From: Pohlia nutans
Taxonomy: Eukaryota > Streptophyta > Bryopsida > Bryales > Mniaceae
DNA: 64,000 bases
Direction of reading: 5' to 3'
Assembly: GCA_022496805.1 (NCBI GenBank)
Contig: CM040087.1
Coordinates: forward strand, 15,955,501-16,019,500
Made by a program: the position numbers and the translations under genes. Shown here one piece after another: positions 15,024 to 51,048 of the stretch. Below the pieces are notes generated by a model. It saw nothing but the letters and a program-made list of their open reading frames with translations, had not been told where the DNA came from and made no database searches. Within the stretch, counting starts at the first letter, position 1, and each line of letters opens with the position of its first letter.

Positions 15024-15027
15024 TTAA

Positions 15028-16972: not shown

Positions 16973-16981
16973 CATCGAGCG
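16973..16981. repeat. 9-bp target-site duplication, left copy
   Basis: CATCGAGCG lies directly before the GGTGAAGCTT terminus and is repeated exactly at 51049-51057 after the mirror terminus. Nine base pairs is the standard duplication made by Mutator-like elements. Confidence 0.93.
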
Positions 16982-18590
16982 GGTGAAGCTTAAATCTTAT
17001 GTTGCCTAGTTTTCAGGAGCCTATTTGCGGCCCTCTCTATTCCTGTATTTACTAGCGTCAGAGTCAGCCGGCGGCGGTTTCAGGGTCACCGCAGTAAAAT
17101 TCGGACCCCTCGCTGCCCGCCCGAATACTGCCCGGCCGGCCGTCCCCGCGTACACGTACCTCCGCCCGTATGCGCGTATACGTATACACGCCCCGCCCGC
17201 CACGTCAGCCACGGGGTGCCATGTCGGCCACGGGCGCCACGTCAGCTTCCACGCATACCGTATGGTATTCAGGGCCTCCCCGGCCGCTTTATCCCATATG
17301 GTTTGCACGGCTATACACCGGTGATTGGGTTGTATAAAGGGCGGAGGCGCCGGTGGGATCGGCACACCTTCCCCGGCCTCACAGCCCGGAGCAAGCGTGG
17401 CCACCCTTCCCGTGTGTGGTTCCCCATGGGTGGCGGTTCTAGGGTTCAGGGATACGGGAAGCATCCAAACCCTGCGACCTCCAACCCAAACCCTAAACTA
17501 GTGGAGCCCAATCGACGCCCAAACCCTAAACCAGCATGTCCCGAGCATGTCCTCGAACCCTAGACGTCCATCGATAGGCCCTAGATCTGCTCTGCGCCAG
17601 CAGCCCCAGCCGACACGTGATCCAGAGTGTTAATCGAACCTCCATCCGCAGAACCAGTGTTATGGACGCCTCCAGCGTTCACGTTCTGTCTTTCGGCACA
17701 TATCCCATATGGTTTGTCCAGCACTCACTCGCAGTCATCAGCATAAATCCGCCAGCCTCCGGATGTAACAGCACACCTTTCCCAACCTCGTGGCTCGGAT
17801 CAAGGGTGGCCATTCATCCCGTGTTTGGTAATCTCGGGCTGAGGGGGCAAACCCTAGGACCTCCATCCCAGGCTATGTATCCACACCCTAGGGCGGGACC
17901 CTTGCGCCTCCTGCTCTTTAGGTTTGACATATGTCCCATATTGACGGGAATGTAAATCACAGATTAGCCGTCCATCTAGTCCTCCAACCCAGTTTCCAGT
18001 GTTATGTCTCATGAGCTGGTTCTATGTTTGCAATGCTATGCGACATTTTGAACAACCGCTGCGGTTCATTAAGATTGTAACACTCATAAACGTACATCAG
18101 AAGTCACCTCTCAGCTGTGCACGATGATCCCAATGCGGTGTTATGCAATGCTCCAAGCCGGTTTAAGGGTGCCATAGCACCAAATTGGTGATATGCCCTA
18201 CTCCAAACTAATAGGATTACAGGAATTAAATCGTCAATGGATGCTGTAGTGGCATTTTATGCACAATGCAACGACTGTGATCAAAGACGAATAACCAAGG
18301 ACGACTTATATTTATGCACGGACGCATCTATCGTTCTAGTGTTATGGATCAACAGACTTTACTTTTCTCCTCCACATATATACTATACGTGGTGTCCTGT
18401 TCACAGTCGTCTGCGTTTCTGTCATGATCCTAGGAATTACGACACTCTATTCTGTTCACGAGCCCCAATTTGAATCTCATCGCTCGCGAATTTCTTTCTT
18501 CCGAGCCAGTGTTATTCCACTTGCTCGAGGCCACAGCTGCAACATAATCTGCGTCTGCACAACTCTCCAACACTCATACACGCATATCGA
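16982..18590. repeat. Left terminal inverted repeat of the giant MULE
   Basis: 16982-17900 matches the inverse of 50120-51048 almost base for base. In the first 230 bp I see four differences, all C/T or A/G transitions. The left copy has an extra 18-bp unit near 17210-17240 (GCCACGTCAG family) and one fewer 33-bp telobox unit than the right. Further in, 18350-18590 still aligns with 49730-49970 at lower identity. The outer part is GC-rich and carries TTTAGGG heptamers and CAGTGTTAT copies at 17655, 17997 and 18507. Confidence 0.9.
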
Positions 18591-20760
18591 CAACTCCATT
18601 TACGTCTGTCGTTTAGGGGCACCGGTCCCAGTACCAGTGTCTTGCCAATTCTTGTCGATTTCGCCAACTCTATAACCGGTGTTATGCCCTGCCCGGCAGT
18701 GGGACGACATGACTGCAGTGATAACTAGATCTGGGGTTAGGGTAACAAAACAATTCAAGCAATCACAATAAGTTTCATCCGCATACTCCTTAGGCTTCAT
18801 TCGTGATTGAATTGCACATTACTTTGGACCTTGAAGATTAGGGGCTATGTAAATTTCTATTTGAGATATCAGTTTTAGATCTAAGAGTATACATTTTATG
18901 GTATTAGGGTTTGAAAGATTATACAAGTGGTTTATGTCAAGATGAAATCCTCCTGGGAAGTCCCGTTGCTGCATCCATTTTCATTCAACCACTGTCAAGG
19001 GCTGTCCCATTTACCCCATATCGTTTGGCAGCGAGAGTCCCGTCGGGAATATAAGGCCTTCCAGGTACCCTCCCCTTCGAGATGATACTTGGAACTGAAT
19101 GGCACTTCGACTTCGTCACTTTGAACTCTGTAGATAAATTTCCACAGGCGCAGGTGCAGGTACCCCGTTAGATTTGAACGCGTTATGCCAATCTTTTTTC
19201 TTCTATTATCTTTTTTTTCAAGTTCACTACCTTATGACAAAAATAAGATCCTAATCACATAAAGAACCCCACCATATTATTTTCAATTTTCTGTACATAA
19301 TTTTCCCATATGTTATTACGATTTTGCTAACACTATGTTCTTTGACTTTATTGAAAATTACGTCCCGGGTCTGCATTTTCAATTCTATTTCAACATCATA
19401 AGGAACACCCTCCCATTTTATTTCATTTATGGAGAAAAAATTTCCATATGTTATTGGAATCTTGCTAACACTATGTTCTTTGACTGTAGTGAATAATGCA
19501 GCCATGAGTACCGGGACTCCATTTTCATTTTATTTTTTCCGAGATGGGTGCCCAACATCATAAGGAACACCCTCCCATTTTATTTAATTTTTGAAAAATA
19601 ATTTTCCATCTGTTATTTAAATTTTGCTATGACTATGTTATTTGACTTTAGTAAAAAATGCAGACATGAGTCCCGGAATTAAACTTTAGCATTTACACCG
19701 TATGGAATTTCAAAAAAAAATATTGAAAATATTTGAAGAAAATGAAAAGTTTATGTCCACTTGCATTCTTAGTTCATGAACATAGGCCTCAAACTGATTT
19801 CTCGATGATAAGTATAATCATATAGTGAAAATCGTACCATCTATAGTGCATGTTATTCCAATTTCTTACGGCAATTTAAAAAGGTTTTGTGTTCACTTCG
19901 TATTTTTGACCCCTAAATGTCCTCACCTATTTTGTAAATCTCAAATCTCTACAATTTGCATCCTTCAAAGATGACATCGGGTGATTTATAATTGATAGTC
20001 ATCAGCATTATGAAGGTGTACCAAGAGTTTCACCATGATTGGAAGATATTTATACTATTCACAAAATTTTATATTTATCAGGATGAAAATTCACAAGACA
20101 GATTATTACTCTCAAATTTTATATGAGAACTTGTATTTAAGGTACTTAACAGTTACATTGACGAGTAGATAAATCATGAAAGTAACATAATTTAAAAATA
20201 CCTATCATTGTAGCATCTTCTGAAAGCCCTTCGTTTTCTAGACAAGACCAAAACAAATTTCTCAATACTAGAAAAACTTCCAATGAACTCTATTATCCAA
20301 TCCCAACAGTTAAAAGATGTATATAAACTTAACTTAAACATCTAATAAAAAGCGGTAATAACAATAAAGCTAAATCACTTTATTTTTAGGATGTTCCACC
20401 AAAAATAAACCACAATATGGTTTAGAGTGCACTTACAAACAAATTCAAGAAATATCCCCCTCGATATCCCCGCAAAATATCTTAAAAATAAATAATTATA
20501 AGCATGACAAATCCAACTGTACATATGTTACTAAACGGTACAGATGTTATTTTCACCTTCATCTTCAATATTTCGCTTTGTACATCAACTCCATTTTATT
20601 TCATTTTCAAACATATTTTAACGATTTTGCAATAACAATGTTCAATCAGGACCCTAAAGGATTGAACCAAATCCCGGGGTCATTACCTGTGTATAAAAGT
20701 TTGCGTCTAACTATTCTTCCAACTTACAAGACGCTAAATCGTGTTAGACTACTAAAGGGC
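18591..20760. repeat. Inserted repeat block inside the giant MULE (left)
   Basis: 18955-19190 (GAGAGTCCCGTCGGGAATAT, then TGCAGGTACCCCGTTAGA) recurs in the same orientation at 31715-31915. 19220-19680 is a short satellite-like array with a period of about 140-162 bp (TTCCATATGTTATT, CCCGGGACTCCATTTT, AACATCATAAGGAACACCC). 19680-20660 resembles the piggyBac-like element at 32188. CAGTGTTAT is absent from the block, unlike the rest of the element, which supports later insertion. No genes. Confidence 0.6.
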
Positions 20761-22361
20761 TAAGGATTAGGGTCGTCGTTGGTCGCTCGATGTTTATAAC
20801 TCAATCTTGAGGAATCATGCTAGACAATATAAAAAGTGGAGAATTTGCAATGTGATCATCGATGTAACGATTTAACACGTATACTATCCAACGGTATCGT
20901 ATAAGATACTAGAGAATCGTAGGGAATCGTAGGGGATCGTACTCAATCGACCTCGTACACGTCGCACGTCACGTCACAGGGCGCAAAGTGACACTGCCCA
21001 GTATTTCGCAAGTACAGTGTTATGGACGGAACTCCAGGTAGTCATGGTCCCCAATTAAGTTGATTGTGAAGTGGAACTAACGTGCCTATGCTTGCAATTA
21101 CAACGCTCAAGGGCCTGCTTGCAATTACAACACTCAATGGTCGACAAGACAGTTTAGGGTTTTGCTCAAGTAATTTAGACTTCTTGCAGTTCGTTTTTCT
21201 TCACCACTCATTAGAGTGTTAGGTCGCGCGCCTTCAAACGGTTTAGGGTTTCGTGCTCAAATTATCATTACACGTCGGATCAACGTTGTTCCGGAGGAGA
21301 GAGCGGGCGGATCGCATTGGAGTGGCGTCACAGTCGATTCCGCAGCTTCAAGGTGCTGTTGCTGCGCCCCCCATAGAAGTTAGTTTCACGCTCTCGATCT
21401 CTGCATCTGCCTTGCTTGCTTGCTTGTTGTGGCTGCCTATCTAGCTAGAACATGAACGACAGGTCAACATAACGTTGAAAATGTTGCAATGGTTGATTCT
21501 TTTCGGTTGAAATGCCATAACCCTGCAGATGGAAGTACTAGGTTATTGGATCTTGAAGCTTAATTTCAATGCGCAACTTCGCGCTTTCCGCTTCTCTGCG
21601 CTTTGGTGCTCTTTGCCGCGCTTGTCTGCGCATTGCTGCACTCTCTTGTGCTTCCAGTGAATGCTATGCTTCCGTTATTGCTGTTAATCCGTCTATGGTG
21701 TTATGGGTGCGCTCTACTGTGTTTAGGGTTTAGGTTCTGCTTCCGTGAGTTTTGTGTTGACGTCTTTGCTGTGCTAACATATTTGCTGTGCTTTGCTACG
21801 CCTGTCTACGCTTTGCCTTTCTTTTCTGTGCATCCACTGAATGCTCTGCTTCCTTCTTTGCTGTTAAACCGTCTTTAGTGTTGTGGGTGCGCTATGCTGT
21901 GCTTCCAATTATTCCTCTGATTCTGTCTCTGCTGTGCTCCAGTGATATTGGTGTGTTTTGCTGTTCATTGCTCTGCCTTTTTCTTTGCTGTGCTGTTCTG
22001 TTCGTCTCTGCTGTGCTTCAGTGTTTGGGATTTTAAATCTGATTATGTTCACAATTAGTTCAAAATCGGTTTTAGGGGGGGAGCTAACCCTATATGTTTT
22101 ACTTCTGCCGGTACGGTCAATTTACAGGTTTGATGGCAATGTTGCAGGGAATATAATTTTCAAGACCATCGGTACCATCCGGTGTTATATAGGACTGGAT
22201 GCGGAAGAATTGCGGGATGGAGCAACGCGTTCTGCCAAGTTGAGATTGCACTGACTTGCCGCGAGGGCCACGTATCGCAGGGAGGTTTACCCGTCCAAGC
22301 AAAGTGGACATACATTGTGCGGCCATATCCACCACAGCAGTCGCGGTTTAGGGAGGAGGCT
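20761..22361. other. Upstream and leader region of gene A, with minisatellite
   Basis: The region carries TTTAGGG teloboxes near 21148, 21241 and 21721 and CAGTGTTAT-type motifs at 21015, 21696 and 22180. From about 21590 to 22030 it is a TGCTGTGCTT-rich minisatellite like those in gene A introns, so it is probably a leader intron. A likely promoter lies before 21250, but I cannot place a TATA box with confidence. Apparent open frames here are translated repeats. Confidence 0.45.
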
Positions 22362-25300
22362 ATGGGAAGGGATAAGCGTACTCCGTCATCAACCGACGTT
22401 GGAGGGAGTTCGGGTTCGGGGACACCGGAGGCTGCGCCGGCTACACAGCCAGTGTTAGCCAAGGTCCAGCGGCAGGTACGCATCGGGGATAATTCTTATA
22501 AGGTTACTTATGAATCCCACGACCATGTTCAGGCCCTCATGAAGGAGTTCCTGGAAGAGGAGTGTTGTGGAAAAAGAAAGAAGCCTGGCAAGGACGGGAA
22601 GAGTCGGAGGTTTTTCAGGTGTAAGTGGTGCAAGAAGGACAACTTCGCGAACAAGTGGGCACTAAACCATCACCGGTTCTTGCAGGGCTGCCCTGCAATG
22701 GAGGGGAAGAAGCTTCACCCTTACCCTGATATGAAAACCGGGCAGGGTAAGATCAGTGAAATGTATCGGGCGGCGACACCGACGGTGTTCACAGCGACCA
22801 GGATTCCCAGAAAGCGCAGCAGGAGTAAGAGTGCTGGGAAACAATCGAGGCGTAAAAAACCTGCCTCTCCCATGTCAGACGAAGATGCTGTCGATGACAC
22901 TGCAGATGACTCTGAAGAAACCACTGACGACGTCGACCAAGGAAACTGTACACACGAGGTCTAAGGAGCGGGAGCGAGTGCTTGCAGCAGCCGGCAAGGG
23001 AAAAACGCAAGAAGAAACTGTACGCACCAGGTTTAGGGTGCGGGAGCGCGTATCTGCATCAGCCGGCAAGGAGAAAGCGCAAGAGGAAACTGTAAGCACC
23101 AGATTTAGGGTGCAGGAGCGCGTATCTGCATCAGCCGGCAAGGGGATAGGGCAAGAGGAAACTGTACGCACCAGGTTTAGGGTGCAGGAGCGCGTATCTG
23201 CATCAGCCGGCAAGGGGATAGGGCCACTGGCGGGGATGGAAAGTCTTCCTGTTAAGGCAGCGGATCAGAAGGTGTGCTGTGCTGTGCTGTGCTTTGGTGT
23301 GCTTTGCTATGCTGTGCTTTGCTACCGTCGTTGCAGTGCTGTCGTCCTTGATGTGCGTCAGTGTTATTGCAGTGCTGTCGTCCCTGATGTGGGTCAGTGT
23401 CATTTGTGTGCTTCGCTGTGCCCCTGTCTTTGTTGTGCTGCCGTCTGTCCCTTGCGGTGTGCTTCAGTGTTATTGCCGTGCTTCCACTCATTGCTCTTCC
23501 GGCTGCGCTGCGGATCAGAAGGACAAGGGCAAGCGCAAGGCTGATGAGGATGAGACAAAAATGGGCTCGGACATGGACCTAGATGAGAGCGATGCTGGCG
23601 GTGTCATGCCACTGGAGGATCCCCCTTCTGCACCCAGGCACGGTACAAGTTATACATTCGGCGGAAACTTCAAGGTGCGCCAAGCTCTGCAATAGTGTTG
23701 TAGTACTGTCTCGTACATGTGTGTTTAAAAGCACTGTTTTCAAACATTGCCTGCTAACACTGCTTTCTAACACTGTGCAGTTAGGAGAAAATGGGCAGGT
23801 ACTGTGGCACTTTACTGATATGCAGAGTGTGGTCGTGGTCAATGGACAACAGGGTCATGGGCCTTTGAAGACTTTGGCCACGGTAAGTCGGGATGTCTCA
23901 CAATCCATATCACCACGGGACGATGACACTCAGCTTCTGGCCCATACAAGAAGACACATGCCAGTGTCCTTTGATGATCATAAGCAGCTAAGTCTGTTAT
24001 GGATCGATGGGGATGCGATTCCATTGCCCAAAAAGTATCATCCAGGGATGGAAGAGACCATGGACGGTAGGCTGGGCAGACTCAACAGAGATAGGGAAGA
24101 ACATTTTGCAAAGGCAAATCGTGAGTGTGATGACACACTCATCAATATTCAGCCCCCCGTTGTACCAACAGCAGTCCCTGGGACCATCCTCTATTGCCTC
24201 ATGAACATGAAAGAAAATTTCCTGCCGTGGCCCGTTTTGCAGCATGCGGGGGGGGATTTTGAGCGGAAGTGGAATGAGTGGTCCAAGACTGCAGAGTTCA
24301 ACGAACGGATGGAGGAGGTGACGGTTTGGTGGTACCGAACAATGATGGTAAGCTTTTTGGGCTGACAGCATAAGTGTTTCATGTAGCTTGTTTTGGGTGT
24401 TTCATGTATCTTTATTTTTTACACAAAGGTAGCAAAATTCAGTTGTTTTGGGTGTTTAGGAGAGCTGATTCCTTGCGATTTGCCGTGCTTCCGACTTTGC
24501 CCTGCTTTGCAGTGCTTCCACTCATTGCTGCGCTGCCGTCTGTCCCTTGTGGCCGACTTTTCTGTGCTTCAGTGTTATTCCTCTGCTTCAGTGTCATTCC
24601 TCTGCTTCAGTGTCATTGGTCCACTTATTGCTCTGCTTTCACTCATTCCTGTGCTTCCGTGTTTGCTGCAGTTCCATCCACAGTTCGATTTGGAGACGTC
24701 ATGCAAACTTAGTGATGTGATTGTTCTGTTGAACAAGGCAACCATGAAGTTCAGCAAGGAAAACGCAGAGGAAATTGCAAGAGAAGTTCAAGCTACCGGC
24801 CTCTACCTTGAGTACCGCCAGAAGATGGCTCAATTTGTGCAAGACCAGCAGGCGTTCGTGGATAATCAGCAGAGGAAGCGCGATGAAATTAGGAAGCGGG
24901 CTGAAGATGTCTGGGACCGGATATCTGCACACAAATACGAGGCCATCGCGTGGGATTGGTGCCCTATCTGGAGGGTTCTGATGCGCCAGCCTAGGTTACT
25001 TCCTTCCATGCCACGACTACCTTGGAAGCACAACGGTGAGTAGAGCATACTAAACACATTGCATACTGGTGAATTGGTATCATGTTGTGGTAGGATGCTG
25101 TTATGGAAATATGGTTGTCGTACTCTCCTACTCTCCTTCCACTTATTGCTGTGGTTGCACACATTGCTCTGCTTCCCTCTTCGCTGTTCTTACACGTCCT
25201 CGTTGTGCTTCAGTGTTATCGGTATGCTTTGCTGTGCTGCCGTCTTTGTAGCGCTGCCGTCCTTGCTGTGCTCTAGTGTTATTGGTGTGCTTTCATCTTC

Positions 25301-28300
25301 GTCCACTCATTGCTAGAGCTGCTTCCTTGCTTTACTGCTGCCGGAGGTCCCTTGCTGCCGTCTTTGCTGTGCATTACTGTTATTGATGTGCTTGCACACA
25401 TTGCTCTGCCTTGGTCTTGGATGTGCTGCCGCTTCCGAAATGTGCTTTGCTGCGCTTTGCTACCCTAAACAATTCTCAAACTGCTTCCGTCTTTGCTACT
25501 CTTCCCTCTTTACTGTTCTTCAATGTTATTGGTGTGTTTTTCCGTGCTTCCGCTTATTCCTCTGCTCCTTTCTTTGCTGTGCTGCCTGCTTTTATGTGCT
25601 TCAGTGTTATTGGTCCACTTGTTGCTCTGCTTCCACTCACTCCTGTGCTTCCGTCTTTGCTGGAGTACGATCCAGACTTGGATACTACTGTCGTATTCTT
25701 ATCTTGTTTTATGGTTCATGCATCCCACTCACTGATGTGCTCTGTTGTTGTCTCAGTTAATGAAGCCAGGATTGTGAGGAAGGTCATTGCCGAAGAAAGG
25801 GTGCAGCGTTTGAAGCCGGACACCTTGGTGTATGTTTTCTGGCTGCTCTACTACCACTTCTACGGCAAGTTTAGGCTCATATCGTGTCCACAATGGGGAT
25901 TGGCGGAAGACAGTCTTCCCGAATGCTGCTGTGATTCGACGAAGATGCGTCGTGCAGTATCAGCGTTGGCTTTTTGCGGTGACTATCTTTTCGCTGACTT
26001 CATTGGGATTAGTAGCGCTGATGCTAATTACCTGTACAATTTGGACATCGATGAGCAGGCCTGGCGCTCAGGACGTGCGGGTTTGGGGTCTGTCCATGAT
26101 TGGGTGAAGACAGTTCAGATCCGTGCCCTCCAGGACATCGCCGTTGAGGATGAGCACACGTTTGTACAGATCTGGTGCACTAAGTCGCACGAACGCTGGG
26201 GCGATCAGGGGAAAACGTGGACTACAGCACTTAAGATTAGGGAGGAGAGGGACATAGGATGGCTTTGCGGCGAGTCAGCACCGGGATGGAGCACCCATGT
26301 CTGGAACCTTCGCGAAGAGATTCGAATTCTGCACCGGCAACTATACGACCTCATTGTGGAGGAAGATATGGCCTGCTGGAGACGTCACCGCAACCGCGAT
26401 GCTGCGGTGGCAGGGCTGCTTGAAGCTCCCCCAACTGCAAATGCTGAAGAGGCAGATACATCGAGGCCTGAACTAGTGGAGGAACGACACGGCGTCCATG
26501 TACGCACAGCCCTGGAGCAGGATAACACTGGTGAATGTGCAGTAGTCGTTGTGCAAGGCTTGGGTCACAGCGCGACGCCCTCGGCTGTCGCTGAGGCTGT
26601 GGGCAGTATTGCCTCCGTGACTGAGGTGAGCTGGAGACGGCACTTGCTTGTTAGCAGAGCGTTCTGAGTCCATGTTCAGATACGGGCATGGGAGTGGGGG
26701 GATTTAAATCAGGTGACTGAAACGCCCTAGATGTAATGGCTGCGGGTGTTTCTGCAAGTCAAGTCGGATTTCACGGTAGCGTGTGGGCACGACGACATGC
26801 CCACTGCTCCAGTGTTATTGGGCACGACGGCGGATGACGAGCTAAAGACGCGCTCTGTCAAGCAGAAGAAGTCCATGGCTGATACTGTCGACACTGGAGC
26901 CTTGGTGCCTGAGGAGAGTGGCGGCCGGGACCAAGGCATGGTACCAAAACTGGTGGGTTTAGGTGGCAGTGTTGGATATTGATAGTTAGAAGTGAGCTCT
27001 GGATGAATGTTTCGATGTATGCATTGCAGTCCTGGCTCTTATGCCGTTAATTGTTTTTGGTTACTAAGGTTGTCATTCGGGCGGGTGTGTGTGAAGGTCC
27101 TGACGGATGGCGCTGACAAGATCATGCAGGACGAGTCGAACAGCCGTCCAGTGTTATTTCCCACGAGGGTGGACGACGAGCGCTTAGAGGGTGTTGATTT
27201 GGAAATCGATGCGAAGCCCGAGCACGGGGCGGGTACGATGGGGGAGCAGCAAGGTCCAGCCCACGGCGAGCAGCCGTCGGGGGTCATTGAGTTTACGGGA
27301 AGTGGACTCTTGCCGACCGAGGTGAGAGGGGCCTGGTTTTTCACTGTTATCAGTGAATTGTACGTGACTGATTTGATGTGGGCATTGATAACAAGGTTGT
27401 CACTGGTGCGGGTGTGGGGTCAGCTCATGACTGGAAGCGCTGACGAGGCGAAAACAACTCCAGTGTTATTTCCCACGAAGGTGGATGATGAGCGCTTAGA
27501 CAGTGTCAAAGTCGCCATGCGTGAGCACGGGGCGGACCTGACGGGGGAGCGGCAGGGGTCGGGCTATAGCGACCAGCCCTCTGGGGGCTTAGAGTTTGTG
27601 GGCACTGGAGTCTTGGTGACTGAGGTGAGCGGGAACCTCTTATTCACTGTTGTCACTGAATTGTACATGAGTGTTTTGATATGAGCAGTGCAGTCGTGGC
27701 TCTGGGAAAATCTTCATTATTTTATTAAAAACAGCCGGGTTGTCAATGGTGCGGGTGTGGGGTCAGGTCACGACAGATGGCGCTGACGAGGTCAAGCGCA
27801 ACGTCAATAACACTGCGTCAGTGTTATTGAGCACTAACGCGGATGACGATCGCGTAGAGGTTGTGCATGATGCGATAGTCGCGAAGCGTGATCACGGGAC
27901 GGGCCGGACGGGGGAGGAGCAGGGGCCGGGCAGTAGCGAGCACTCGGGTGTGGCTGACTCTGCAGCCAGTACAGTCTGGGTGCCTCAGGTGAGCAGGGGC
28001 CGGGACCACCTCAGGGTGCCTTGACATGTGAACTTCTGACCACCTCATGGTGCCTCACTGTTTATTTATTGTTATTAGGGAATTGTAGCTGAATGTTTTG
28101 TTCCAGGAATTGCAGTCGTGGCTTTTGTGATTTTCCTTATTTTGAAGGTGCGGGTGTGGGGGCAGGTCGTGACCGGTGGCCCTGGCCGGATCCCGCACGG
28201 AGTCTTGAACACTCATCCTGCAATATTGCCCACGAGGTTGATCCACGAGCGCTTAGACAATGTGGATTTCGAAAACGTTGCGAAGCGTGAGCACGGGGTG

Positions 28301-30329: not shown

Positions 30330-30399
30330 ATAATCCGTTAGTGCAGAAGTTCGTGGCATGGTGCACCGGCTGTATTGCTCTACCATGCAATGTAATCTA

Positions 30400-36853: not shown

Positions 36854-37050
36854 TTAACATGTATGGGATCACCCCCAAAATTTTCTAATATTTATAAAGA
36901 ACTAATTTCCGTAAGTTATTTGGATTTTGCTAACTCTATGATTATTCTAACTTATGTGGAAAATGCAGCAATGAGTACCGAGACTAATTTTTATTTTTTT
37001 GGCACACATGGAAAATGCAGCGATGACTACATTCCAAACAAGCTATTGTG

Positions 37051-38520: not shown

Positions 38521-38521
38521 C

Positions 38522-41500
38522 CGCACCCAAACAATGAACTCCCTTAATGTAATGGGTAGACATCGATGCAATGCTTCCAGAGAGGTTATTTTTCGCGACG
38601 CCTGACACGTTTTCCACTTCTATCTTAGCAATCTGACTGTAGCTAATGTCTGCGCCTAGTTCTTCATCAGTGTACGTGTCAGCACAGATGCGTACTGAGT
38701 TCAATACCTGCGATGGAGTAATCAGTTCGGGGGTACTCTGGATCCCATTATCATGAACTGAAACCCATCCTTCTACTGGCAGAATAACCCCATCCGCTCT
38801 TTCCGTGGGCTGTGAAGGGACTGAGGATGAACCTTTGATATCTTCTACTGCATTCCCAATGTTATGTTCCTCCACTGGTACAACAGTCGCCTTTTCTTCG
38901 CGTTTAGGTGCCATTTCAGTGGTGCACTTTGGGAACTCTTCGCCTGTTGTTCGGTGCCATTCAATCCGCCCTACCCACGCAGCATCCCGTGTACGGTGGC
39001 GCATCCACCAAGCTGCATCTGCATCAACCACCGCGCTATGAAACTGCCGGATTCCTCTATGAAGCTCTTCGCGGGCATGCCATGCATCAGTGCTCCATTC
39101 CTGAACTACTTCGTCACATATCCATCCAATGTCAATGTTTTCTCGGATGCGCAGGGCACGTGTCCAAGATTTGCTTTGTTCGCCCCATGCTTCGTGTGAC
39201 ATAGTGCACCAAGTCTGGACAAATCGGTGCTCATCCTCGACGACGAAGTCTTGGAGGGCACGAATCTGCACCGTCTTTACCCAATCGAGTACGGCTTGCA
39301 CACTTGCACCCCGGGCTGACCATACGTGTTCGTCAAGGCTCAGACTGTACAGTCCATTTGCAACACCATTGTTGATCCCGCCAAGGTCTGAAAAAAGATA
39401 TTGACCGTAGGATACCAAGGCCGACACCGCGCGTTCAAACGTGATCGAATCGGGAACGGGAAAAACGTCTTCCTTCAGTCCCCACTGCGGACAGGATATG
39501 AGCCAGAACCTCCCATAGAAATTGTAGAACAGCATCCGGAAAACGTACACCAGGATGTCTGGCTTAAGGCGTTGGACTCTGTTGTCAATAAGAATCTGCC
39601 TCACTTCTCTGGCTTCGTGCTCTGAGAAGGTAGTGGGGATGTTAGTAAGCATGGTGTGCAGTCAAGGAGATAAAGGACATCATAACCTAAACCACTGTGT
39701 GTAACAGTTCAAAGCATACATTTCAAAGCATACCAATGACTTGCGAAAGTATATCACTCACAATATTAAACATCGTAAAACTGATATGATTTTGGCACTA
39801 AGGTAATACTGTTTGCCAGAATACTGTTTGCATTAAAAAGATTCTGTTTACCCGCCCTTAACGCTACAACTGGACTTACCATCGTGCCTCCAGGGTTGTG
39901 GTGGCAATTTTCCTAGGATTACAGGCTGACTCATGAGAACCCACCAAATAGGGCACCAATCCCACTGTATGGCCTCAGTCCTCTCTGCTGCAATCTTCGC
40001 CCATGCCACCTGGCTCGCGTGCAACACGGCTAGACGCGCCTTATTGCGCTTCTCTTCAAACGCATTGCATGCTTGCTCCCATTCCTGGTGCTTTTTGCAG
40101 TAGTCAATGTAGCGGCCGATATTTTGGACAGAACGTGACAATGGAGTATTCGAGCTATTAGGTATGAGTGCAGCATTCAATTCGTGGATCGCATCGGACA
40201 CACGGGCTTTAACATCCTCAGACAGTGCCTGGTCAAGCTGCAGCAGATGGCCACGCTCAGTTTTTATTTATACACCCAAAGAATACGATTAAAAGGGACG
40301 GGTTCACCAGTCTAACGCAGTGTTATGGAATGTATGGGCAGTATTACGTAGATCATACCAGAGCTTTGCCGCGGTACCACCAGATTACCACATCGTTCAT
40401 CTTGTTCTCGAAGTGACCACTTTTCTGAAACTCGTTCCATCTCCGTTCAAACTCCTTCCCTCCATGTTCCAGAATAGCCCATGGTAAAAAATCTTTCTTG
40501 AGGTCCAGAAGTTGGAAAAGGTTTGTTGACTGGAATTCCTGTGGTGCAGTAGGAGGCTGGAGATTTGCATACGCGTCATCGGCATCACGCCTAGCCTTCC
40601 TTTCGTGTTCTACCTGTTCCCTCCGTAGTTTGGATAGCCGGTCGACTGCAGTGCCTTCCGCGCCTGAATGGCACCAGATTGGGGGTGGAATCCCCTCACC
40701 TCTAATCCACATAAGATGTATGTCACTCTGTTCTGTAGAATCCTTTGTCGTTATCACGGTCTTACCCTTCACTCCAATGTCATTGCCTTCACAAGCCGCT
40801 AGCCCTGCCACTGACACACACGCTCAATATGTTATGTGCAGTGTAAGTGTAAGGGTCTGCTCAATGTGCAGCACCGTTGATGATCAATAAATCCAGAACA
40901 ATTGAGAGAGAGAAGGGCGTGAATACCGCGTATGCGAGATGGCCTGAGGTGGCCACGGAGAACAATGCAATTGGTAGAAAGAAGGGTATACATACCTGAG
41001 TTGATCTTTGCCTTCTTGGGCTGCTGTTCAGGGATTGTTTCCATGTTCGAGGCAATCCCCGTGAACTTCCTCTTCACTCCCTTTGTAGGAATCCCGGATT
41101 GTTGTCGACTTCTTAGCTTACCGTTGTCTTTGCTGTCCTGGTTCGTGACTGCATCCTTGTCCGGCTGTGTGTGCTTTCCTTTGAGGGGCACTTCCATCGA
41201 AACATTCCCACATGGCTTCTCGTGGCTGGCAACTGGTTTTTTCGATTTAGGATTGACGACGGGCGTTTTCTTCATACCCCGTGGTTTGTCTTCGAAACGT
41301 ACCCTCTTCTGCCGATCAGAAATCGCCGGTTCCTTCTCTCGGCCAACAGTCTCTGCCATTTTGGTTTCCTGAAATGACACCTTGGTGGTACGTTTGCCCT
41401 TCTGGACGACAGCTACCTCGCTGATGTTGGCGCTGGTATTTCTAGCAGACTGCCACAGGGGATCTTGGCTCGACCCTTCATCCTGCACAGTGTTTTGAGT

Positions 41501-42251
41501 GATACGACTTTCGTATCGTATGTTACACCCAAAGGCAAGCTGAACATTTCAGCACCCTAAATCGGACAATTCTATCACCTTGCAAGGCAGGAGAACACGT
41601 TCGACTAACCTGGAAAGCATCGTCGGTGCTACATGCATCTTTGGTGTCATCGCTACATGCGACCGCCTTGGTACTCTTGGAACGAGTACTCCGGGCCGTA
41701 CACGCTGCTTTCCCCTCTTTGTCAGTCGGCTTTCTTTCAATCGCCACACGCTTGAATTGCACATCTTTCCCCTTCCTAAACATTTCCCCGGTTTTCCCTT
41801 GACCGCTCTCCATGTCCGGATATGGATGTGTTATTTTTCCTCCCAAAGCAGGGCACCCCCTTACGAATCGATGGTGTTGCATTGCATACTTGCTGCAAAA
41901 GTCATCTCTACGGCACATCACGCACCTCCATAATCTTCGTTTTTTCCCGTCCTTTCCAGGTGGTTTATATCTCCCTCTACAGTCACCGGAAAGGAACTCG
42001 GCCAAAAGTTGATCAACGAGTTCCTGCGACTCATATTCGACATGGTAATCAATTTCGTATATCCGAACCTTCAGAGTCACAGGCTGGTTAACCTTGTGCT
42101 TGGTAGTTTTCGTACCCTCCTTCGACCTCGATGAAGTACGGAGATCTGCAGGCTGGATAGGAGTGGCACCACAGACAGTCAAAGGTGGGCCTGCCCTTTT
42201 ACGTATAGCGGGCTCTGGTTTCACACGCCGGCCTAGGTGGTTGGACGCCAT
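38522..42251 (-). CDS. Gene B: zinc-finger protein, inverted paralogue of gene A without the protease
   Basis: Five exons on the minus strand, 42251-41610, 41482-40996, 40810-40359, 40237-39880 and 39621-38522, join in one frame of 1,013 codons with no stop. The last ends at a perfect gtaagt donor, so at least one short 3' exon follows (about 38.3-38.5 kb). Exon 1 has the same finger as gene A (CVMCRRDD...HHRFVRGC) with PGKDGKKRR before it and HPYPDMESGQGK after it. Exon 2 is basic and nuclear-looking. Exons 3-5 match gene A exons in order, with conserved WWYR, WDWCPIWWVLM, RLKPDILVYVF and CPQWGLKED. Intron positions and phases agree with A, so A and B arose by duplication, then diverged strongly. 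B has no Ulp1 domain, no tandem exons and no minisatellite introns. Function unknown; sequence-specific DNA binding is my inference. Confidence 0.8.
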
Positions 42252-44256
42252 TGTCAAACCGTTGCTGCCCGTATATCCCTTGCAAGTATGTGGCAACTAG
42301 TGTTACGATTACACCGGCCGGTTTAGACTACCTTTTCACTACCAACCTTTGTCCACATTCCGAAGTATATAAAATTCGTATGGCACTGCATCCAATGGAC
42401 CCTGAAACAGATAAATGACATCACAGATCAGATCCCATATGGTTTGTCATGGCAACAGAAGTCCTCCAGGTCACAGTTTCCCAGACTTCTCTTAAGCACC
42501 AATTCGCAACCATGAAGAAAATGAATCGAATTTTCAGTATACACGACTATTTGGCGTCCCATAGAAATGAACGACATTTGATTAACGGCGCGCAACGGTA
42601 GCTGTATCGTGGCAATAACTAAAAGCATTCATACTTTGTACGGTGGATCTGATATCTACGTTAGGCTGGTGTCGTCTCCGGAACCCTAGACCATTCACCA
42701 CATCGCTGACATGCATGGGTTCATACGGAGGCTAATAAGGCAGCAATATTCAATGCAGATGGTAAGCAGACGTACCTCGTGCTGAACACAAATGTCCTTA
42801 AGGCAAACTCGTACAATTCTTAGCAGTTCCCGGAACTATGTACGACTACATTAGTTGATCTTGAAATCGGATTGTTTGAAACCCTACAACTGAACCTAAA
42901 CCCTAAACCGTAAACCGTAAACCCTAAACCATAGTCCAGCATATTTCAAAGACGCAAACAAATGAGAATTCTTATCATCGTTTTGCTACCTAGAACCGGT
43001 TCCCTATTCCTGTTAGACGGAGAGAATGATATGGAATTGAGGAAACCGCTAAAGACGTCTACGATAGCTAGACTCCTCGTCCGAAGGCCACGAACCCTAA
43101 ACCCATCTCAACGCCGCGCAGCTGGTGCGATGTAAAGTGAAAATCACCTGAAGGAAATCGAGAAGCGGACACGACGATGCAATAAGTATCTCCAAACAGA
43201 AACTGCCAGCAATCGAGCGAATCGCTGCCAAACCAAGGATGGAGATCTGGACCTGGAGTAGAATTCGAGGGCTTGATTCACCGACTGATCAAGTGTCCGT
43301 TGTGGTTGCGTCCGCGCCGCTCAGCATTCGTAAGACGCCAGACATTCACAAGCACAAATAACGACAACAGAATCCGAACGTTACCGAGGCCCGATTTCCT
43401 GTGAAATCCGCCGTCATCTCCAATGCAGCACCAACAAGTACGAGAATGACCTACTGTGGGTCACACCATCGGTCGATCATATCGCGGTTAGGGTTTTCCC
43501 ATAACACTGGACGCTGTAGACCCTGCTGATGGAAGGAAATCCAATACCCTATGCTAATCTAAGACCAGGTCAGTGCTATTGAAGATCCATATTTCAAGGG
43601 TTCTACTTAACCTGGATCTACGTGACCTTGCACAACCCTGCCAGAGTCAGTGATATCGAGGGCATCGTCTCTCTCACAACTCCTGCATTGGCTCTGGTTT
43701 AGGGAAAGGTAAAGACAGATGTGCACAAGATTGGTAGGGGGGAGTTAATGGGGCCTGGCATCTTCTAGAGCTGATGTTCACCCCAAGCATGAGGACGGTC
43801 ACAGTGTAGGGTTTGAAGCTCCGGTTCAATCTTCCTCCAACAAGCTATTGCTACCTTCAAGAATTCCACTTTACCCGGATCTACGTGAGCAAGCTTGCAC
43901 AACCCTGCCGGAGTCAGTGATTTGTTGGGCATCGGGTCCCTCAGAATTTTTGCGTGAGATTGGTTTAGGGAAACTTGAAATCAGTCGTGCACTATGGCTG
44001 CGTTAGGGGGGAGAGCCAGATTTGTAGCTTCTGGAGCTGATGTTCACCCCAAGCATGAAGACGGTCACAAATTAGGGATTGAAGCTCCGGTCCAACCTTC
44101 CCTCCAAGAAGCTATTGCGACCTTCAAGGGTGCCACTTTACCCGGATCTACGTGACCTTGCACAACCCTGCCGGAGTCAGTGCTTTGTTGGGCATCGTCT
44201 CTCTCAGAACTTCTGGGTTGAATTGGTTTATGGAAAGGTGAAATCAGTCTTGCGCT
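42252..44256. promoter_or_regulatory. Divergent promoter region between genes B and C
   Basis: Genes B (-) and C (+) are head to head across about 2 kb. The middle holds a cluster of telobox sequence near 42890-42935 (AAACCCTAAACC and degenerate CCGTAAACCGTAAA), another at 43098, and CAGTGTTAT (minus) at 43501. From 43597 a tandem array leads into gene C. Teloboxes are common in plant promoters of growth-related genes, so this is a plausible bidirectional promoter. Confidence 0.5.
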
Positions 44257-44387: not shown

Positions 44388-47300
44388 CAAGAGGAACGTT
44401 AGACACCCTGCTCCTGGACCTTGGGGGGCTAGAGATGTTGAGTGGAGGATGCTGGAGCGTACGCAGCGTGGATCCCACGGAAAAACGCCCGTTGTGCAAC
44501 AGTGTTATGTGAACTCTGATCGTGTCGACAATTTTGTCGCAGGCATGGAGGGTGCTAAAGGAGGGATCTCATGCAAATATGTTGTGATTGAGAAGTACGT
44601 GTTCAAGGTTGCTTCAAGAGTACGAGCCACGGCCGGACTACTATTCAGAAGGTTTGAAAGTCCACCAGTACCCTTGAAACTCTTACGTACTTGTTCCTCC
44701 TTGAAGTTGTAGTGTGGACTGTCTTTGAAACTCCACACGTGTTTTATAGGTTCAGTTGCCAATATGGACCTCAAGACTACAGCGGCATTGTGAAGGACAT
44801 CACCGAAGACATGGTTCCAAAGACTAGAAAGAAACGTCCCACGATGAAGAACATAATGGCAGGTGAATCCACGGCGCCTCCGAAACCGCCCAGGAAGCCC
44901 CGGGCTTGGAAAGTGAAGCTGGCATTGACGATGACAGGCACCCATACCACTGTCTCTGGGCGTAAACCGCGGAAACCACGCAAGGTACCTGTTGAAGCGA
45001 GTACTCCTCCTTCCCTGCTTGATCTGAATGAACCACCTAGCACCACAGCGCCTCCAAAACCGCCGAGGAAGCCCCGTGCTCGGAAGGTTTCTAAACCTGT
45101 GACGGGTGCTTGCTTCCATAACACTGCGTCGACCGACAACAGCGGCCAATGTCCTGACGTGGGAGGGACCGGTTGTTGCGTTCAGTCAAAGAGAGGGGGG
45201 CGTAAACCGCGGGCACCACGCAAGGCAGATGCGGTTGCGAATACTCCTCCTTCCTTGTTTGATCTGAATGAGCCACCGGAATCTGCTGCGCCTCCGAAAC
45301 CGGCGAGGAATCCCCGTGCTCGAAAGGTGTCGCAGACTCCGGCGGCTGCCTGCTTCCATAACACTGGCTCGACTGACAACGACGGTGAAAAGACTGGCGG
45401 GGGAGGGACCTGTGCTTGCGTCCAGACGACGAGAGCAGGGCGTCAACCGCGGGCACCACGCTGCGCACCTGCTGTTGCGAGTGAACCTCCTACAGTACTT
45501 GATCTGAATGAGGCACCGGTTGATATGGAGGTTGATCCGCCATCCCAGAACACTGACCCGGACAGGGATATCACTGCTGCCATGTCCAGGCTGACGACAT
45601 CCATTGCCCAAAAACCTGAGCTTCCCGATCTGAACCTGGAGCCACCGGTAGAAGAAACTACCACGAAGCCCAAGGCGAAGCGCGATTCACGAAAGAAGTG
45701 GGGCGAGTCGATTAAACGAGGATGTAAAGCTTCTTTCACGGTGAAATCATTATATCACTTGCTTCATATTTCCGAAATCTGCATAATTCACCCAAGGCAT
45801 ACCAACGACAGGGGCCTGGTCGTGCACGGTGATTTGAAGATTGGGGATAGGAGTGCTCTTCAAGCACACTTGTCTCAAGAAATGATTGAGAAGGTACAAG
45901 GTTGGATTCGGGAGGGATATAGTGTTGCGCAGATCATGGACAAGCATCTGGAGGACTTACAAGTCCGCTTCCGAAAGGGTTCATTCGACGTTGACCGGGA
46001 CGTTTTCCTTGAAGAACAGGACGTGTACAATCTCGCAAATGGAGTTTATGGCGAAACATGGAGATTGCACAAACATGATGCAAGTAGCGTTCGAATGTGG
46101 GTTCAGCGGAATCCTCACGAGTGGTTTTACTACAAGGAGACAACGACGGAAGAGGTGCGAGGGGCATTAACGGGTAGTAACATGCCATTCACTTTGGGCA
46201 TTCAAACATCGTGGCAAAAGAAGATGATGCTGAAGTACGGTCACGCAGGAGGGATCTCCATGGATGCCACATTTGGCACGAATTCTAAAAAGGTACAGTC
46301 ATAGACCATGTGTGTTTTATTCACATGTCAACTAGGTTATTTTCTGCTTCGTCTGTCTTATGCCATTCGACACACCTCTTCTGACACTACCCGCTGTTGT
46401 GTTCTTTGACCTCAGTTCCCTTTGTACACCGTAATGGTGTTTGATGAATATCACAACGGTGTTCCAGTGGCATTCATCATTACGAGCAACTCTGCCCAAG
46501 CAAACCTAGTGCCATGGCTGAAAGCATTGAATTCAGCCATGACAACAGAACAGGCAGATTGGTGTCCCAATGCTTTCATCGTGGATTGCGCACCAGGAGA
46601 GATAAACAGCCTGTTGTACGTTTTCTAAACATAGTTGTTTTGGATAGTTACTGTATGGTCTCACTTTAATGTAAACAATCATTACGCTTGCTGCCATAAC
46701 ACTAATTTGGACGTTGGCGTTCATTGTAAGTAACCCCAACTGCTGTCTTTCCCAGGGAAGTGTGGCCAAGTACGAAGATTTTCTTATGCTTGTGGCACGT
46801 GTGAAGAGCCTTACAGAAGCAAACATGCATAAAGATTCCAGATCATGAGAAGCGGGCGGATGTTCTACGGGAGCTGGGGAAAATTATGTACGACAGAACA
46901 GGCCCTTCTGGAGATGCAGCAGTGCCATGGGCAACCGAGAAGTTAGCTGAATTGGAGGAGAAGTTCCCTTTGTACCCAGATTTTTGGGAATACATGCGCA
47001 GCCAATGGTTGAACAAGGTGCACATGTGGGTTGTTGGGTTCCGTGATCTCTCTTATGGGGGCAGGATACAAACTCTGCAATCGAGATGTACCATGGGTAT
47101 TTGAAGTCGGTCCTGAAAGCGGAACGGTGTCGCTTAGCCGGGCGACGGGTGGATTGGGAGATCCACATGCTGATGGCAGTGTTACGGCATTACTGGTATC
47201 AGCATTTCCGGAAGATGTACGGGTTCATCAACAATAGCAAGATGCAAGCCGTTGCTGTTGGTTCGATTATTAAGGCAAGGACTATACCGGACGGTGATGT

Positions 47301-47907
47301 GCGTCTCCCAGAGTATGACGGAGGGCCAGCGCGGGTAGTGTCTTCGGAGTCTAGGGAACTCATCTACACGGTGCATAATCCAACTACGGACCTCGCTTCT
47401 TGCACATGCGTTCACGCTCAACGAGGCAATATATGCAAGCATCAGGTGAAGGTCCTTCAAATGTTGCGTCCTGATCTATTGGAAGGTATTGGAAGGTATT
47501 GTGGTCGCACACTAGGGAATCTCAACGGTGGCGTTCGCGAAATGCTGAATCCATCTCAGTGTTATGTATCAACGGAGGTGAATACTGAAGCGGGCCAAAA
47601 TGGTGCTAGAGCCAGCACCACAAGTGTTCAACAAGTGAAGCGGTTCAGACCTCGAGGAAACCTCCTCGACACGCTCCGCAACCAGGCCGTTGCGCTAATC
47701 AAACACGTTGAAGGACAAGACTTGTTGATGGATCACCTACACGCCGACTTCAATAGTGTTTTGGGCAGAATCAAGAGTCTGCAATCCGACATACGGAAGG
47801 GAAAAATCGACGCATCTGCATCTACTCCCGTCCACATCAAAGTAAATGACGACTTGGGTGATAGTATAGTTCGCAAGAAGGATTTTCTCGAGCGAGGTTA
47901 CCCGTAA
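44257..47907 (+). pseudogene. Gene C: MULE transposase with DLNxxP repeat block, disrupted
   Basis: Exons 44257-44651, 44750-46292, 46416-46615 and from 46756 give a MULE transposase. The first Asp is in SMDATFGTN, the second in FIVDCAPGE, the Glu in TNSAIEMYHG, and a SWIM finger follows (CTC...CKH). A C..C..HxH finger (SCQYG; RGCKASF; HPRHTN) is split by about 300 residues of repeats containing PPKPPRKPR-type basic AT-hook-like stretches, ACFHNT and four DLNxxP or similar motifs (LDLNEPP, FDLNEPP, LDLNEAP, PDLNLEPP). DLNxxP is the plant EAR repression motif that recruits TOPLESS. Two lesions: TGA at 46802-46804 straight after LWHV, where MULEs normally have Arg or similar, and a one-base shortfall in the G run at 47057-47061 just before the catalytic Glu. 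The C-terminal part to 47907 is open in the shifted frame. This copy should not make a full transposase unless the lesions are sequencing errors. Confidence 0.88.
44860..45650 (+). repeat. In-frame repeat block of the transposase (basic/EAR units)
   Basis: Three to four units of about 80 residues repeat within exon 2. Each runs through a PPKPPRKPRA-type segment, a cysteine/glycine-rich spacer, GRKPRAPRK and a DLNEPP motif. In two units the codons for HNT carry CATAACACTG, the inverse of the element-wide 9-mer (45118, 45358). The equivalent places in the outer units hold one- or two-base variants (44942, 45549). Confidence 0.85.
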
Positions 47908-49124
47908 TCAAGACTGTCCGTAATGACCAATCATCAAATCTGCGCTCGGATGTCAGATGTATTCCTGCTTGGGAACTGTAGATGTAAAATGATTCAGTCT
48001 TTAATATGGGTTGTGCTACGAACCCAAATGTATCTTGAAATCCTGAATGTAATAAACATCGTTTCATTGAACACCCTGTCGTTGGGCATTGAATTGGCAA
48101 GCTTGCAATTATAGATATCATAAAGGCTAAGGGCCGCATCAGTCAAATTGACACCGATCTTCCCCGAGATAAAACCAGTGGTGCAGTCTGCCTTATTGTT
48201 TTCAGGACATCGAAGCAGGAATTTGCCACAACCGGTTCAGTGGCTTAATCGCCTCGATTGCAAAATGAACGCGTACAATTATGACGTGGTAAATATAGTA
48301 CGGTGCGTGGAGGTCCAGTGGCAAGCTTGGATCTGAATCTGAATTAGAGTCTCCAAATAGCATAACACCGGTTGTTTCCACATCCGGGGCCCGATTCTGG
48401 CCATCCGGTTGTCCAATGACGGCGATCAATTTTAGTTTGAACACACCCGGAACCCAAGAACCTAAACTTCTGAATGGAAGAATGCTCACAATGCTGGTCG
48501 CCTCAAAACAGAACGCAGTGCTATGTAGCGATCCAGACTCTGGGATATGTATTTTGTTATAACCGGTGTCTAGGTCCTCGGTAAGCGCGGATGCAATGGA
48601 CAGTCTGCCTTGTCGCAGATCTTAGATTTAAAACTTGTGGTTTTCGATACCTAGGGGAAAGGTGATTTGCACGATGCATCCCGGAGCTTGTTGTATTTGA
48701 ACACAGTTATGAAAGGGAGTGTTTAAAGCCTGTTACGGGGGTTTTCAATATATGCTGTTGTGTTCGAATTCTCTATGCACAATTTTCGTGCGGTCGTGTG
48801 CTATAGACATGGAGCGATTCTAATTTGTTTATTCCGAAGCTTCATGTGTTTCTATGTGAACCTCGGGTAATGGTTAAGCTTTGTAACGTGGCGTGATTTT
48901 AAAGTAACATGTTAGGGTGCGATAGTAAAGAGAAATTCCACGATAATTGCCAACAAAACCTACAATGCTTTGTCCGAATGTACCAACTATGTCTACGGTG
49001 CAGCGATTAGGTAGAAGTATCCCACGGTGAGTCAGTTTCTCATGTCAACGGCCATGGTCGTGTTCAAGTAAGTGTGCATTACAAAGCGTGCAGCAATGTG
49101 GAGATATTAACCATAACACTGGTT
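47908..49124. other. Spacer between convergent genes C and D
   Basis: This is the 3' flank of both the transposase and gene D. It contains the variant motif CGGTGTTAT (minus) at 48362 and an exact one (minus) at 49113, eleven bases past the gene D stop. No further exons recognised. Confidence 0.4.
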
Positions 49125-49511: not shown

Positions 49512-49729
49512 GATGGAGAAAAAGACTACAATGAACTAGCCCGGAGTTATACAGGCACATATAGTTCACAACGATGGAATATCCGGTCTGCGCGCACAGC
49601 TGTCACCCGTGCTGAAAATAGCTGTATTCCTGTACATAACACTGTGCTAACATAAGATTTAATGGATGGGTCGATGGCAGCTTCCAATCACTGCTGAAAA
49701 GGTATCATCTGGTTACCTAAACCTAAAAA

Positions 49730-51048
49730 GCACATATCGATAAGCGTGTGCGAGTGTTGGAGACTTGTGCGCACTTAAGATTAGGTTCCAGTTGTGGCCT
49801 CTAAGTGAAATAACACTGGATCGGAAGAAAGAAATTCGCATGAGGAGAGGTTCAATTTCGGGACCTTGAACAGAATGGAGTCTCGTAATCCATTTTAGCA
49901 TGACAGAGACGTATATGACTTTGAACAGGACACAGCATATTGTATATATGTGGATGATGGATTTCAAAAATCAGGCGATCCATAACACTGATACGAGATC
50001 TCCGTCAGTGAACAGTGGGAGAATGTAGTTGGTCGGCACATCTGTGCTTCAAATTCCCGTGAATACCATATGGGACTTATGTCAAACCTAAAAAGCTAAA
50101 CCGCTACAACCCTTGATAAAGACCCTAGGGTGTGGATACATAGCCTGGAATGGAGGTCCTAGGGTTTGCCCCCTCGGCCCGAGATTACCAAACACGAGAT
50201 GAATGGCCACCCTTGATCCGAGCCACGAGGTTGGGAAAGGTGTGCTATTACATCCGGAGGCTGGCGGATTTATGCTGATGACTGCGAGTGAGTGCTGGAC
50301 AAACTATATGGGATATGTGCCGAAAGACAGAACGTGAACGCTGGAGGCGTCCATAACACTGGTTCTGCGGATGGAGGTTTGATTAACACTCTGGATCACG
50401 TGTCGGCTGGGGCTGCTGGCGCAGAGCAGATCTAGGGCCTATCGATGGACGTCTAGGGTTCGAGGACATGCTCGGGACATGCTGGTTTAGGGTTTGGGCG
50501 TCGATTGGGCTCCACTAGTTTAGGGTTTGGGCGTCGATTGGGCTCCACTAGTTTAGGGTTTGGGTTGGAGGTCGCAGGGTTTGGATGCTTCCCGTATCCC
50601 TGAACCCTAGAACCGCCACCCATGGGGAACCACACACGGGAAGGGTGGCCACGCTTGCTCCGGGCTGTGAGGCCGGGGAAGGTGTGCCGATCCCACCGGC
50701 GCCTCCGCCCTTTATACAACCCAATCACCGGTGTATAGCCGTGCAAACCATATGGGATAAAGCGGCCGGGGAGGCCCTGAATACCATACGGTATGCGTGG
50801 AAGCTGACGTGGCGCCCGTGGCTGACGTGGCGGGCGGGGCGTATATACGTATACGCGCATACGAGCGGAGGTACGTGTACGCGGGGACGGCCGGCCGGGC
50901 AGTATTCGGGTGGGCAGCGAGGGGTCCGAATTTTACTGCGGTGACCCTGAAACCGCCGCCGGCTGACTCTGACGCTGGTAAATACAGGAATAGAGAGGGC
51001 CGCAAATAGGCTCCTGAAAACTAGGCAACATAAGATTTAAGCTTCACC
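49730..51048. repeat. Right terminal inverted repeat of the giant MULE
   Basis: This is the inverse of the left terminal repeat. It is nearly identical from 50120 outward and diverged from 49730 to about 50120. It carries CAGTGTTAT on the minus strand at 49810, 49982 and 50353, and at 50486-50565 a 33-bp tandem unit (GTTTAGGGTTTGGGCGTCGA...) with one more copy than the left end. Confidence 0.9.

Follow-up and report, generated by a model that had tools for sequence, protein, structure and literature searches.

What keeps one nine-base word, CAGTGTTAT, in 31 copies along a single large transposon, and what might read it? The window, that is, the whole 64,000-bp stretch of contig C3 analysed here, in whose coordinates all element positions are given, contains a transposon of 34,067 bp (16982-51048), which is Mutator-like with inverted repeats of about 0.9 kb and a 9-bp target duplication, and which carries two paralogous genes, A and B, and a transposase. 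A first-pass annotation had read the word as a self-recognition code like that of the VANC anti-silencing proteins. The element-wide code stands: the word is enriched in ten of ten stretches of the element group, it is retained between copies and a cousin element has sites of its own. The VANC membership is not supported, as neither DUF1985 nor DUF287 was found in the searches described below. We propose that CAGTGTTAT may be the DNA component of a self-recognition system that acts in trans, with a predicted element-encoded reader and an anti-silencing consequence; judging from the sequence, we see the chances for and against this proposal as about equal.

The array itself is exactly as first described, with 31 exact copies, 19 on the plus strand and 12 on the minus strand. 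The CAGTGTTAT sites and their settings are:

17655..17663, plus strand: site in the terminal inverted repeat (TIR), partner of 50353
17997..18005, plus strand: site
18507..18515, plus strand: site in the diverged TIR extension, partner of 49810
21015..21023, plus strand: site
23359..23367, plus strand: site in a gene A intron
23465..23473, plus strand: site in a gene A intron
24570..24578, plus strand: site in a gene A intron
25211..25219, plus strand: site in a gene A intron
25602..25610, plus strand: site in a gene A intron
26522..26530, minus strand: site in gene A exon 4
26810..26818, plus strand: site in a gene A repeated exon
27149..27157, plus strand: site in a gene A repeated exon
27461..27469, plus strand: site in a gene A repeated exon
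27807..27815, minus strand: site in a gene A repeated exon
27819..27827, plus strand: site in a gene A repeated exon
30455..30463, plus strand: site
30925..30933, plus strand: site
31247..31255, plus strand: site
37374..37382, minus strand: site
38160..38168, minus strand: site
40318..40326, plus strand: site between gene B exons
43501..43509, minus strand: site between gene B and the transposase; context matches site 8776 of the cousin C1x
44500..44508, plus strand: site upstream of the transposase; context matches site 9187 of the cousin C1x
45118..45126, minus strand: site in a transposase exon, tandem repeat
45358..45366, minus strand: site in a transposase exon, tandem repeat
47557..47565, plus strand: site in a transposase exon
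49113..49121, minus strand: site
49636..49644, minus strand: site
49810..49818, minus strand: site in the diverged TIR extension, partner of 18507
49982..49990, minus strand: site
50353..50361, minus strand: site in the TIR, partner of 17655

Chance does not account for this number. The early estimate of about 0.3 expected copies agrees with Markov models of the element, which give 0.32 (order 1) to 0.65 (order 3), and the 29.9 kb of the window outside the element hold no copy, as had been noticed. Dinucleotide shuffling of the whole window, repeated 100 times, gave a mean of 0.65 copies and a maximum of 3, and among 2,939 control 9-mers with the same composition and no CpG the most frequent reached 9 copies in the element. 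The excess also survives correction for duplication: when sites were grouped by context (60 bp on each side, lenient linkage), 11 contexts remained, for which the Poisson probability of at least 11 at an expectation of 0.65 is 1.2e-10. Coding DNA is not avoided, since 9 of the 31 sites lie in approximate exon models that make up 31% of the element. The one-base variant found most often is TAGTGTTAT, with 30 occurrences against 1.4 expected in six copies of the same family, as for a putative degenerate binding site.

These copies came from a search of the genome (G000; 697.8 Mb, 332 contigs) with a 499-bp TIR query, which gave at least 45 matches. Among the matches listed, seven pairs in opposite orientation lie 33-38 kb apart, the window's own pair included; family 1 was sampled as the window's copy and five of the six other pairs, leaving out the pair on C22. 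The counts of CAGTGTTAT are 31 in the window's copy (C3), 29 in C15, 29 in C23a, 28 in C23b, 25 in C23c and 34 in C2. In each of the six copies it is the most frequent 9-mer, the reversed word is absent, and every site falls within the element ends. C2 differs from the window's element by 7.7% over 26.4 kb of aligned bases, yet it has more sites. Enrichment is present throughout the ten fetched stretches of the element group, with order-3 Poisson probabilities over their whole length of 4e-47 to 4e-11; the density of exact sites is 0.3 to 1.0 per kb across 9 to 38 kb. Within the family, retention was compared in 12 ordered pairs of copies, chosen from 42 possible ones, and in 8 of them CAGTGTTAT did better than CpG-free 9-mers (p<0.05); these comparisons share copies and have uncorrected p values. 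From C3 to C2, 22 of 27 sites were retained against 54% of the control words (p=0.003), and from C23c to C2, 19 of 21 against 54% (p=0.0004).

A second family emerged from more distant TIR matches, as pairs on C1, C8, C5, C16 and C17 spanning 26-52 kb. Its copy on C1 (C1x; 26.1 kb, with a 9-bp duplication) has an A-type gene, a B-type gene and a transposase, whose identities to the window's element are 77% in the A-type exon 4, 75% in the B-type exon 4 and 89% in the transposase core. Local matches to the window's element, on either strand, cover 13.4 of 26.5 kb, about half of this copy. It carries 20 copies of CAGTGTTAT, its second most frequent 9-mer behind the overlapping AGTGTTATG (21), and these represent 13 contexts (Poisson P 2.0e-16). 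Two contexts (8776 and 9187) are clearly like those of window sites 43501 and 44500, and three more resemble window contexts marginally, just over the random 99th percentile. Because 11 of the 20 sites lie in DNA without a local match to the window's element on either strand, we consider that the word has been maintained rather than merely inherited. The copy on C16 (C16y) has 9 sites in the first 20 of its 32 kb. Three of them lie in a tandem array of 150 bp, at a place where its sister C1x has a single site.

Two further relatives extend the group. C4z, a third-family element on C4 (27.3 kb fetched), contains 9 exact CAGTGTTAT and 15 YAGTGTTAT. C14n, a 9.35-kb remnant on C14 with an incomplete right end and no transposase match, contains 8 and 15, respectively. 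Families 1 and 2 carry both an A-type and a B-type gene, and in C4z and C14n one A/B-type gene each was found, nearer to B. The retention of YAGTGTTAT with distant relatives exceeded that of controls at p<0.05 in three of five comparisons (p 0.020-0.068). Single sites also occur elsewhere in the genome: at six 3-kb loci chosen for the 13-mer TCAGTGTTATGGA, that site was the sole CAGTGTTAT in all six, whereas the two TCAGTGTTATGGA loci from within the window's element contain 2 and 5 copies. Among the loci looked at, arrays are seen in this element group only.

A trans-acting reader would be the simplest cause of a word that is kept in number more than in place, in diverged lineages and in a remnant. 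As the word is spread element-wide and arrays are absent from the flanks, an element-encoded reader is favoured. In the mechanism that we propose, such a protein would bind to the array, labelling the entire element as self; the number and spread of sites would matter more than their exact position; and silencing would be removed or prevented locally along the element, a VANC-like role that is plausible by analogy with VANC21. Tandem and paralogous duplications would supply new sites, while selection for recognition would maintain the total. The reader may be A, B or both, paired zinc-finger-like genes that are the natural candidates because of their conserved C-C-H-H-like exon. Their features are:

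22362..29734, plus strand: gene A, approximate model, with a zinc-finger-like exon at 22362-22937
22940-23218, plus strand: gene A 24-aa tandem repeats
near 23860-24351, 24668-25034 and 25756-26627, plus strand: gene A exons
26779-28360, plus strand: gene A repeated exons
28528-29734, plus strand: gene A C48-protease-like C-terminus, with an in-frame TAG stop at 29582-29584
38520..42251, minus strand: gene B, approximate model, a paralogue of A in inverted orientation

The two genes share 50% identity in the zinc-finger-like exon and 49% in exon 4. A is best read as one gene because in the homologue P0013 the exon-4 region is continuous with the C-terminal part (28918-29734 in A); no match to the C48-like part of P0013 was found in gene B, and no relative of gene B exon 4 was found in viral contigs. 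The reading frame of gene A shifts between the zinc-finger exon and the 24-aa repeats, whose core number ranges from 1 to 5 among the six copies. An H...D...Q...C pattern in the C-terminus (28918-29734), also seen in P0013 and without profile support, resembles that of C48 (Ulp1-type) proteases. The reading of the C-terminus as a SUMO protease (C48) was rejected: neither Pfam nor the PDB sequences gave a match, and a fold search with a model of low confidence was uninformative.

Several observations weigh against the proposed self-recognition system. The first concerns the reader. No Pfam family matched genes A and B; DUF1985, DUF287 and C48 had no match in 46 element open reading frames (ORFs) of at least 100 residues (E<=0.5), or in five A/B exon pieces and P0013 (E<=1), a negative that, for the VANC domains, leaves room for distant homology below Pfam's reach. 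AlphaFold models of the zinc-finger exons had a mean predicted local distance difference test (pLDDT) score of 42. With such poor models and no Pfam match, the idea that A or B binds DNA is a guess based on the conserved C-C-H-H-like residue pattern. The second concerns the array. Retention was not significantly better than that of controls in 4 of the 12 family-1 comparisons and 2 of the 5 distant ones, and from C3 to C23c it was lower (17 of 27 against 71%). C4z has a tenth site 169 bp outside the element, and its commonest 9-mers come from a GC-rich tandem repeat, not from CAGTGTTAT. Across the genome, the 13-mer TCAGTGTTATGGA has 25 matches and its reversed control 8, and the six family-1 copies account for only 9 of the 25. 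Protection of the motif surroundings from CpG decay was also looked for and set aside, the difference being small: the CpG transition ratio across the six copies is 1.73 within 100 bp of motifs and 1.94-2.17 in four other distance bins. The third, which bears on the VANC-like role, is that the element group departs from VANDAL21 in three respects: DUF1985 and DUF287 were not found in those searches, the motif also lies in exons, so that a preference for non-coding DNA is missing, and the same word serves families 1, 2 and 3 instead of differing between families, as it does among VANDALs.

The orientation of the sites bears on what else the word could be. The first-pass annotation had described the array as mirror-oriented, which holds for the window's copy (left half 16 plus and 2 minus, right half 3 plus and 10 minus, p=4.5e-4) and fails as a general rule, as the interior of the cousin has no polarity. 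The halves differ in all six family-1 copies (p 0.0004-0.015); for sites more than 2.5 kb from the ends, the values are 0.026-0.19. Part of the polarity comes from TIR partners (17655 with 50353, 18507 with 49810) and from duplicated exons and introns. In C1x the halves hold 9 plus and 3 minus against 3 plus and 5 minus (p 0.17), and the interior 4 plus and 3 minus against 3 plus and 2 minus. Strict mirror polarity was therefore rejected, because it weakens away from the ends in family 1 and is lacking in the cousin interior.

Sites do lie in the terminal zones of both families and point inward there, as would be expected if CAGTGTTAT were a transposase binding site for end recognition and synapsis, comparable to that of TNPA in CACTA elements, with the interior copies as decoys, spill-over or titration sites. 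The basic repeats in the transposase N-terminus agree with this, and the reading of repeated subterminal motifs by element proteins is established for En/Spm (PMC2613891). However, the majority of sites are internal, in introns, in exons and between genes, where end recognition needs none, and the remnant without a transposase match has sites as well; we judge this explanation unlikely.

A host transcription or chromatin factor could instead recognize CAGTGTTAT, accumulated for element expression or as an insulator, so that the element would encode no reader. An invariant host reader would be expected to leave the same word in otherwise diverged families, which is what is found, and sites flank genes and lie in introns; in addition, 16 of the 25 genomic TCAGTGTTATGGA occurrences lie outside the six family-1 copies. 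Against this stand the distribution of sites throughout the element, exons too, rather than in promoters only, and the absence of CAGTGTTAT from about 30 kb of flanking host DNA, a small sample. We would give the host factor a minor share of the probability. Both it and transposase binding stay live rivals to the self-recognition system.

A signal in RNA, for splicing or processing of element transcripts, would fit the five gene A intron sites of the window's copy, all five of which are in sense orientation. This is very improbable: sites at the two element ends are on opposite strands, and the cousin's A-type gene carries sites in both orientations, because of which a DNA-level signal is favoured. 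An equally improbable alternative, that the word is functionless and part of old internal repeats spread by duplication, draws on the reduction of 31 sites to 11 contexts and on clear duplicate groups in the introns and repeated exons of gene A. It is close to refuted, as the first family still has 11 contexts (P 1.2e-10) and the second 13 (P 2.0e-16), the sites share only weak preferences beyond the nine bases (G/T next, then mostly G), composition-matched 9-mers peak at 10 and most of the cousin's sites are its own. Context clustering, the composition-matched controls and the cousin's own sites likewise rule out a tandem-repeat artefact.

The element around the array is assigned to the Mutator-like elements (MULEs); both a 9-bp target site duplication and a MULE transposase domain were found in it. 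Its remaining features are:

16973..16981, no strand: left 9-bp target site duplication, CATCGAGCG
16982..17893, plus strand: left TIR, beginning GGTGAAGCTT
44811..47905, plus strand: MULE transposase, start approximate, with the MULE domain PF10551, a SWIM-like region and N-terminal repeats with DLNEPP and basic motifs
50123..51048, minus strand: right TIR
51049..51057, no strand: right 9-bp target site duplication, CATCGAGCG

The duplication CATCGAGCG is a direct repeat flanking both ends. The two TIRs are 98-99% identical across three ungapped blocks; the left has a diverged extension to about 18600, and the right has an additional 33-bp tandem copy (50485-50564) and a diverged extension that begins at about 49726. 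Target duplications are 9 bp in the window's element, C23c and C1x, 10 bp in C2, and 9 bp with one extra base in C15. In the transposase, PF10551 scored 53.1 bits (E 4.6e-14) against a cut-off of 27.6, with exons joined and X placed at one stop and one frame change; the SWIM zinc finger scored 17.6-19.1 bits, with a cut-off of 19.6. In the window's copy the coding sequence is interrupted once by an in-frame TGA (46802-46804) and shifts frame once near 47055. Among named transposases the nearest is P0015 of the moss Ceratodon purpureus (58% identity over 73% of the query), the match from which a moss host is deduced; P0058 of the fern Adiantum nelumboides is 36% identical over 94% of the query. 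Within the N-terminal repeats (44811-45900) are four DLNxxP-type motifs, presumably EAR-like, together with basic RKPRKPR-type stretches; a pattern search found three or four DLN motifs per copy in all six family-1 copies and none in C1x.

Other observations were made on the element and its copies. A 6.1-kb stretch without CAGTGTTAT (31256-37373), partly AT-rich and with repeats in common with 18976-19693, is possibly a nested insertion. The telobox-like variant CCTAAACC occurs 17 times in the window's element against 3 in the flanks, partly in tandem repeats, and 15-21 times in six other full-length copies. A minus-strand ORF region (49112-49514) matches C16y 14675-15078, beside the A-type gene of C16y, at 72% and is perhaps a displaced exon. 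C23a (C23:1899599-1932913) and C23b (C23:2011982-2045686) are 99.4% identical in opposite orientation and have exchanged target site duplications, one perfect and one 8/9, as expected if recombination had inverted the roughly 80 kb between them. Contig C23 (16.7 Mb, about 2.4% of the genome) holds 16 of the at least 45 TIR matches and is possibly a sex or otherwise repeat-rich chromosome.

In the papers searched, CAGTGTTAT and ATAACACTG were not found as whole words, and among the matches listed for VANC, VANDAL, anti-silencing, moss and MULE, no title or opening of an abstract describes such an array outside Arabidopsis, the plant from which sequence-specific transposon anti-silencing is described in the sources consulted (PMC5735166, PMC10398659). 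A further array of this kind, whose word is nearly identical and occurs in several families and remnants of one genome, makes the generality of such codes in large DNA transposons testable. It also allows one to ask whether divergence is obligatory, as in VANDALs, or stability possible, and by which protein the codes are read. Should A or B prove to be the reader, it would represent a novel family of DNA-binding proteins and might serve as a tool for releasing chromatin at chosen targets.

Known systems share parts of this arrangement. In En/Spm, the element-encoded TNPA reads a short repeated motif that is subterminal (PMC2613891), whereas here the sites span the whole element, from 17655 to 50361. 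VANDAL6 and VANC6 likewise pair related Mutator-type elements with an element-specific short motif, and their motifs, AGTTGTCC and AGTTGTAC, differ from CAGTGTTAT (PMC5735166). The closest parallel is VANDAL21 with VANC21, also Mutator-type, in which a 9-base motif (YAGTATTAY, compared with YAGTGTTAT here) is dense in the element and its copies (PMC5735166). As in VANC-type systems, the motif here is dense in the element and its copies and rare around them. The one-base difference between the words, to which the first-pass annotation pointed, is real, but 192 of 262,144 9-mers are equally close on either strand; noticed after the fact and without protein homology, the likeness is suggestive. 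YAGTATTAY as the actual motif was rejected, with 2 occurrences in the element and 3 outside it (5 in the window).

VANC21 targets introns, intergenic regions and terminal non-coding regions, and VANC target motifs are gained through tandem repeats (PMC5735166). VANDAL21 and the window's element alike have sites in introns, in intergenic DNA and near the termini, and motif gain by tandem repeats is paralleled in the C16y array, the window's repeated exons and the transposase repeats. Both elements also encode, next to a transposase that is better conserved, a protein whose tandem peptide repeats vary in number. For three reasons we do not class the window's element with the VANDALs: the search for VANC domains found none, its motif shows no preference for non-coding DNA, and the motif stays constant between families. 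The group differs further in its element size (26-38 kb), its TIRs of about 0.9 kb and its probable moss host, and it is known here from its sequence. A broader suggestion, which we hold tentatively and with rather more doubt than belief, is that giant Mutator-type elements of a non-flowering plant may have their own sequence-specific system of self-recognition and anti-silencing. Its ancient, stable, element-wide word would be common to families and remnants, which a single protein could thus release together, and its readers would be zinc-finger proteins that have no known relatives. It would be a counterpart of VANC with a separate or very old root, using a stable, shared code where VANDALs use a diverging, private one.

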